49,774 nucleotides of DNA from Bacteroidota bacterium (GTDB taxonomy: Bacteria; Bacteroidota; Bacteroidia; Palsa-948): NCBI GenBank assembly GCA_016213435.1, contig JACRAL010000054.1, positions 1 to 49,774 on the forward strand, given 5' to 3'. Each line of letters starts with the position of its first letter. Within the stretch, counting starts at the first letter, position 1. Positions 49,381 to 49,774 of this stretch are shown piece after piece. Below the pieces are notes generated by a model that ran no database searches, was not told where the DNA came from, and worked only from the letters and a program-made list of their open reading frames with translations. The translations under genes and the position numbers were made by a program.

Positions 49381-49551
49381 TTCAGCGAAGCCTATGTATG
49401 GACGCGCGAACTTTATCGCAGCGCCAAAGCGGCAGCAGCCAATCAGGTGCCGGGTGCCGATGCAGTGGCAGATGATCTGGCTCCTATGTTTGAAGCACAA
49501 GGCAATCAGGGTGCAACGCCTGATGCTGCTCCTGTAACTCCGGTGCCGTAA
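49381..49551 (+). pseudogene. Orphan C-terminal coding fragment (Ala/Pro-rich)
   Basis: An open frame without start reads FSEAYVWTRELYRSAKAAAA and ends DAAPVTPVP at TAA 49549-49551 (57 codons). The SEAYxxxRELYRxAKxxxxxxVPGxDxxxDDLxxxF pattern looks like the end of a small Bacteroidota/phage-type protein family that I have seen without an assigned function. It begins immediately after the terminator T run, and its GC-rich composition differs from both neighbours. It is probably a remnant left by recombination, rather than an expressed gene. Confidence 0.55.
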
Positions 49552-49560
49552 AAAGCATTG

Positions 49561-49580
49561 AATTCACAAATTTGTGGATT
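49561..49580. repeat. 20-bp palindrome upstream of the repeat array
   Basis: AATTCACAAATTTGTGGATT is a palindrome with one mismatch; the core CACAAATTTGTG (49565-49576) is perfect. Such dyads often bind dimeric regulators; possibly linked to the 21-bp array 20 bases downstream. Confidence 0.6.
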
Positions 49581-49599
49581 GAGGGGCTAAAAATATCAT

Positions 49600-49714
49600 T
49601 ATCATTTACCTTTTGTTTGTTATCATTTACATCTTATTCGATATCATTTACCGGTTCTTTGATATCATTTACAGTTTGTTTGTTATCATTTAGTATTTAT
49701 TTGTTACCATTTAC
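49600..49714. repeat. Six tandem repeats with exact 21-bp period (TATCATTTAC core)
   Basis: Core TATCATTTAC (last base variable; last unit TACCATTTAC) starts at 49600, 49621, 49642, 49663, 49684 and 49705, each 21 bases apart, separated by 11-base spacers rich in T/G (for example AGTTTGTTTGT). It ends 28 bases before an ATG. The 21-bp spacing equals two helical turns, so each unit faces the same side of the DNA, as in iterons and operator arrays. Confidence 0.9.
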
Positions 49715-49742: not shown

Positions 49743-49774
49743 ATGAGAAAACTTACTCCTGAAGAATTGTCCGA
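49743..49774 (+). CDS. Start of an unidentified gene (runs off the right edge)
   Basis: ATG at 49743 followed by AGAAAACTTACTCCTGAAG, translated MRKLTPEELS, open to the window edge. Ten residues do not allow identification. Its only context is the 21-bp repeat array immediately upstream. Confidence 0.45.
   Translation, partial: MRKLTPEELS

Follow-up and report, generated by a model that had tools for sequence, protein, structure and literature searches.

At the right-hand end of the window, that is, the whole stretch of 49,774 nucleotides analysed, an array of six 21-bp direct repeats lies just upstream of the start of a gene for a small basic protein. Our best explanation, for which we see about an even chance, is that this array is a private, helically phased operator of the downstream gene and would be bound by the encoded protein of about 82 residues. 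The family, consisting of a small protein and its own 21-bp array, is apparently undescribed; a literature search, with most subscription journals outside its scope, returned no description of such an array-protein system. The features at this locus are the following.

49383..49551, plus strand: 3' remnant of a gene of the c1 family, 5' part missing, with 93% nucleotide identity to the copy on contig C163 of the same genome (G000) and 75-82% to those on C68 and at other loci.
49561..49580, no strand assigned: imperfect 20-bp palindrome AATTCACAAATTTGTGGATT, matching at 18 of 20 positions.
49600..49714, plus strand: array of six 21-bp units, each made of the core TATCATTTAC and 11 variable T-rich bases, identified by Tandem Repeats Finder (TRF), pattern scan and shuffles.
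49743..49774, plus strand: start of the small basic protein gene, about 10 residues (MRKLTPEELS), cut by the contig end; the homologue in genome G005 begins MKKLTSEEFS.

Contig C213, which the window covers in full, is one of 216 in a 3.7-Mb draft genome, and it stops at 49774, 60 bases past the array. The units start at 49600, 49621, 49642, 49663, 49684 and 49705, so that the constant 21-bp spacing of six units described in the sequence-only reading is exact, and TRF delimits the array at 49599-49714 with period 21, 5.5 copies and no indels, as the top-scoring tandem array in the 49.8-kb window. That reading had counted six TATCATTTAC cores separated by T/G-rich spacers. Four of the cores are exact (units 1-4), two carry one mismatch each (TATCATTTAG in unit 5 and TACCATTTAC in unit 6), and the spacers were found to be T-rich. 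The palindrome that it placed 20 bases upstream is present, is imperfect and ends 19 bases before the array; it occupies the position at which other copies of the locus have a terminator-like hairpin with a run of T, for example GATCGTAAATGTTCTTTTTTTG. The ATG at 49743 does follow the array after 28 bases, and the reading frame of the c1 remnant ends in ...PVTPVP at the TAA at 49549-49551. A pattern of paired cores with up to 3 mismatches occurs in the window only at the array and was found in 0 of 100 dinucleotide shuffles, and an exact-pattern scan of genome and viral collections gave chance or unrelated matches only. At a contig end in another Bacteroidetes genome (L009:7820-7944) there are 21-bp units AATGTATCATTTACCATCYGC that share TATCATTTAC by sequence, about 190 bp 5' of a regulator-like gene with a helix-turn-helix-like product. 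Three Shewanella contigs (L010:1692, L015:3651 and L017:1700) have TATCATTTACGCCTACAAAGGTATCATTTACGC with a common sequence after it and differing sequences to its left, a pattern resembling a mobile-element end.

Because the contig ends inside the downstream gene, that gene cannot be named from the window alone. Its identification, which the sequence-only reading had proposed as a check, was reached through a relative in the same genus. Contig C71 of G005 carries a complete locus, consisting of an upstream gene whose C-terminus matches the window remnant at 49383-49551, a terminator-like hairpin, a 21-bp array with a unit close to TTATGATTTACCTTTTATAAG, an 82-aa gene and mrp, and the gene at 49743 is thereby placed in an unclassified family of basic proteins of about 82 residues. 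A DNA overlap search found no continuation of C213 on another contig; from the protein sequence the window gene probably continues on contig C94, where positions 3-197 start at family residue 18. The same genome has about seven further copies of the small gene (on C68, C163, C104, C154, C88 and C94, with a broken one on C12), that on C88 reading EELSDFQSGWDGRSSPF. Nearly all copies with upstream sequence have an array of their own with 21-bp units that differ from copy to copy, such as CTCGATAGTACACTGAACATG on C163 and GTTATGTTTTGATTAAACGAT on C68.

The family proteins have a median pI of 9.9 and a net charge of +8. No good match was found in Pfam, NCBIfam, PHROG or PADLOC and none among PDB sequences, and the families in these five collections give no support for a DNA-binding fold. 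For most measurable pairs of the small gene dN/dS is below about 0.3, from which it follows that the gene is under selection. The family occurs in 31 of 395 genomes of the class and in 9 of 197 genera, including all seven genomes of genus g4 and 7/9 genomes of genus g10, with up to about a dozen matches per genome. In a draw of 395 genomes across the phylum the only family match was in the genome of the window itself. Searches of 72,556 plasmids, 50,697 phages and IMG/VR gave no member; short, weak phage DNA matches were not counted as members, and the wide alignment A2 was too diverse for the viral scan. Longer homologues of 170-190 aa have an extra C-terminal domain, fall into families f20 and f41 and are single-copy in the sampled genomes. 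In the long forms L097-L108 (except L105) this C-terminal domain is conserved (...LQLKSDLVVFYLGR...HIVIENEKTYIPLR), has no family match and is accompanied by an 11-bp repeat upstream. The c1 family (about 165-190 aa, some members with a longer C-terminus) recurs before the array and small gene in several genera (window 49383-49551 and loci L153, L154, L155, L161, L164, L165, L166 and L171), and nucleotide identity between c1 copies is often above that of the array and small gene behind them.

The association between array and short-form gene is strong. When the best period was taken among 12-60 bp in the sequence upstream of the 59 short-form genes that have at least 128 bp of it, this period was 21 or 42 in 50, as compared with 0/11 of the long forms; among the nine exceptions are partial copies and copies at a contig edge. 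In the 350 bp that precede family genes, every TRF row but two has a period of 21, 42, 63 or 84; since loci overlap, these rows are not independent. The short-form arrays have a median of 8.4 units and lie a median of 63 bp from the start codon. Unit sequences vary freely among loci, and for distant pairs the similarity on the same strand is no higher than that to the reverse complement. Over the family, pairs with more similar proteins also have more similar array units when the same strand is compared (Mantel r=0.43, p=0.0005), a co-variation that is partly expected from linkage alone; the corresponding value on the reverse complement is not significant (r=0.04). At 60-80% protein identity the array can be aligned in 78% of pairs, the gap between array and gene in 25% and the 3' flank in 0%, a comparison that rests on few pairs and favours the array, whose repeats offer more chances to align. 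There are also close proteins with clearly different arrays (L133 vs L135 or L147). Two loci are syntenic between G091 and G009. Their flanking proteins are mostly 87-94% identical (a few are lower), and array and small gene give no nucleotide alignment; one pair of small proteins has 44% identity, and the other pair is diverged.

The arrays of the family also have a substructure within the 21-bp unit. Similarity between half-units at a lag of 10/11 bp is 0.133, as compared with a null of 0.017 (sd 0.020; p=0.0005), and the most over-represented trimer is AAC. This trimer is contained in TTAAACAAYAR, a conserved 11-bp repeat found at about -150 to -100 in the long forms, above a conserved promoter; pairs of it spaced by 11 bp number 18 vs 0.6 expected, with the motif chosen from the same sequences. 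One helical turn in the long form and two in the short form would be compatible with a single binding mode of a shared N-terminal domain.

The -7 consensus of Bacteroidota promoters is TAnnTTTG, and it is present at about -37 or -28 in 9/11 long forms. In the short forms it occurs 12 times between array and gene (1.4 expected) and 0 times inside the arrays (4.5 expected), the exact consensus being found in a minority of short forms only. In a few short forms the gap between array and gene is only about 14 bp, and the promoter there must consequently overlap the array. Repeated sites are thus found upstream of the gene's own promoter, as for a small autoregulated regulator.

In the mechanism that we propose, molecules of the protein would occupy one repeat after another cooperatively, all on the same face of the helix, and the bound protein would control its own promoter. 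After duplication of the module, array and protein would drift together and give rise to paralogues with different sites. An operator array read by a protein on one DNA face was among the candidates named in the sequence-only reading, and it is the one that we favour; beyond the spacing, the position of arrays above recognisable promoters, the period of 21 or 42, the 10/11-bp half-units and the co-variation with the protein all point to it, within what can be read from sequences.

The operator reading is complicated by arrays that lie outside the family. Tandem arrays between genes, with a length of 55 bp or more, were surveyed in stretches of three genomes, and their periods are multiples of 21 in 10/11 cases in G000 (423 kb, window included), 3/3 in G001 (360 kb) and 10/11 in G091 (400 kb). 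The stretches were not chosen for the family, and the density is slightly biased by C176 and G001:C71, which had previously been seen with an array. Within genes, most arrays of G000 have a period other than these, and those of G001 and G091 show a mixture. In G354 and G148, which have the long form, 200 kb each contained no intergenic arrays with such periods. Most surveyed arrays are upstream of a gene, including small families whose members repeatedly have arrays (3/3, 3/5 and 2/2 members). The genes that private 21-bp intergenic arrays precede are many and unrelated, and they include several small protein families of about 200-400 aa; the loci outside the family are on C37, C196, C176 and C41 of G000 (L240-L259), in G091:C1:1-400000 (L280-L299) and in G001 (L260-L277). 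One orphan array (L234:3980-4228, on G005:C55) has twelve units that are 90% homogeneous, lies after a c1 gene and lacks a small gene downstream; it has the usual leader and opens with bases that match those at the start of the array on C68.

The arrays of the family could be one case of a general intergenic class that is independent of sequence, the small gene being just one frequent neighbour; in promoter regions, 21-bp arrays would then be made or maintained either by copying in two-turn steps or through a nucleoid protein that senses the spacing and not the sequence. We regard this as possible, at clearly less than an even chance. The predominance of multiples of 21 beside unrelated genes in all three genomes, with private units each time, is in its favour, as is G001, a congener with private 21-bp arrays and no detectable family member, which shows that a 21-bp array does not require the small protein. 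However, arrays not beside family genes have neither the half-unit similarity (-0.049 at lag 10, p=0.999) nor the enrichment of AAC, which makes the period of 21 wider than the family and the half-turn signature specific to it. Arrays are found at 50/59 family genes vs a few percent of other genes, and array and protein co-vary. In a broader reading, some Bacteroidota-like genomes would contain on the order of a hundred private intergenic arrays of exactly two turns per unit in front of many unrelated genes. These would make up a regulatory or structural code with private sequences and conserved spacing, and the family of about 82 aa, with its co-varying arrays, would be one self-binding branch of it. 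We put this forward tentatively and expect it to fail more readily than to hold; the genome-wide counts rest on sampled stretches, from which the order of a hundred is extrapolated.

By analogy with known partition loci, the small protein might coat the array in order to anchor or pair DNA, with autoregulation as a secondary effect. Such a centromere-like locus would be consistent with a small, basic protein whose gene is immediately preceded by direct repeats, and cross-pairing among the loci of a genome, up to about a dozen, would be avoided by their different arrays. The loci are, however, chromosomal, with no partner ATPase recognised and no match in the plasmid and phage collections, and no test result speaks for segregation, so that we consider this role improbable. 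A plasmid partition locus of the ParR/parC or StbA type, which is found on plasmids and usually comes with a motor protein, is not supported either: the 72,556 plasmid records contain no match and the neighbours are unrelated chromosomal genes.

Similarly improbable, to a slightly greater degree, is a small mobile or amplifying unit in which array and gene are copied together and the array is needed for copying. The module on C104 is a copy of that on C163, about 90% identical and with fewer units; the copied part begins immediately behind the c1 stop and runs as far as the final codons of the small gene, and other duplicates within the genome likewise lose homology at the gene end. The array and small gene are also absent directly upstream of mrp in six congeners, but the mrp neighbourhood of G005 is rearranged and therefore offers no clean empty site. 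Against mobility, no transposase, terminal inverted repeats or target duplications were recognised, and some loci are syntenic between species. A transposon end was discarded, as no boundary signature was seen at the duplicates, and so was a minisatellite in a MITE of the BrickBuilt type, given the private unit sequences and the lack of evident inverted repeats at duplicate boundaries (judged by eye).

A repeat that encodes heptads or a structured leader RNA is the least probable reading, hardly to be entertained: 21 bp do equal seven codons and a plus frame is open in some arrays (the window, C163 and C154), but 24/43 arrays have no open plus frame, the open ones use differing frames, codon-phase variability is significant in 0/41 and 0/22 arrays, RNA folding of the arrays gives no consistent or general signal, Rfam gives no match, and the arrays are mostly upstream of recognisable promoters. 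The decayed heptapeptide-coding tract that the sequence-only reading had offered is rejected on the same frame counts and the lack of codon phase; the minus frame in which it had noted heptads is not the sole open one, since a plus frame is open through the window array too, and we give that frame no weight. Dyad symmetry of the units likewise gave no general signal (mean z 0.32; above 2 in 7/45). A type III toxin-antitoxin system, in which a terminator separates a transcribed repeat array from a ToxN-type endoRNase toxin, is not supported, as the arrays mostly precede those promoters that can be recognised and no PADLOC or Pfam match was found.

If the protein does bind its array, nature offers dozens of pairs of protein and array that differ in specificity, and a single genome can have up to about a dozen. 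The rules of a small DNA-binding fold could then be read from sequence, and the pairs could be used as independent switches. Almost all intergenic tandem arrays in these genomes have units of exactly two helical turns, irrespective of sequence, which raises the further question of what measures 21 bp.

Several known systems resemble parts of this arrangement. Replication initiators regulated by iterons have direct repeats of about 20 bp upstream of their genes, spaced by helical turns, and direct repeats of this length at constant helical spacing near a gene are found here as well. Iterons of an initiator, a further candidate of the sequence-only reading, are nevertheless unsupported: the product has about 82 aa, no Rep domain and no Pfam or NCBIfam match, it is chromosomal with many copies per genome (up to about a dozen), and it is absent from the plasmid and phage collections searched. 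The stbA gene of R388 is said to be a single-protein plasmid stability locus with direct repeats upstream of the gene for the protein that binds them. By that description it differs in being plasmid-borne, whereas the present family is chromosomal and multi-copy, with different repeats for each paralogue.

The BrickBuilt elements of Porphyromonas gingivalis have a 23-nt unit of one common sequence and are MITEs with terminal inverted repeats and predicted long stem-loops (PMC4596501). Like the present arrays they are short tandem arrays in many copies between the genes of a Bacteroidota genome, with repeats that have a conserved and a variable half (PMC4596501). The arrays described here differ in that their units are 21 bp and private to each locus, no terminal repeats and no stem-loops were found, and they are tied to a protein family. 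The TAACTGA direct repeats of Beggiatoaceae, Cyanobacteria and some Bacteroidetes are also intergenic tandem repeats upstream of genes for which a regulatory role was proposed (PMC4679880). That element is a fixed heptamer, mostly next to the start codon, with a proposed post-transcriptional action (PMC4679880), whereas the arrays of the small protein family have 21-bp units of many sequences and lie mostly upstream of the promoter where one is recognisable.
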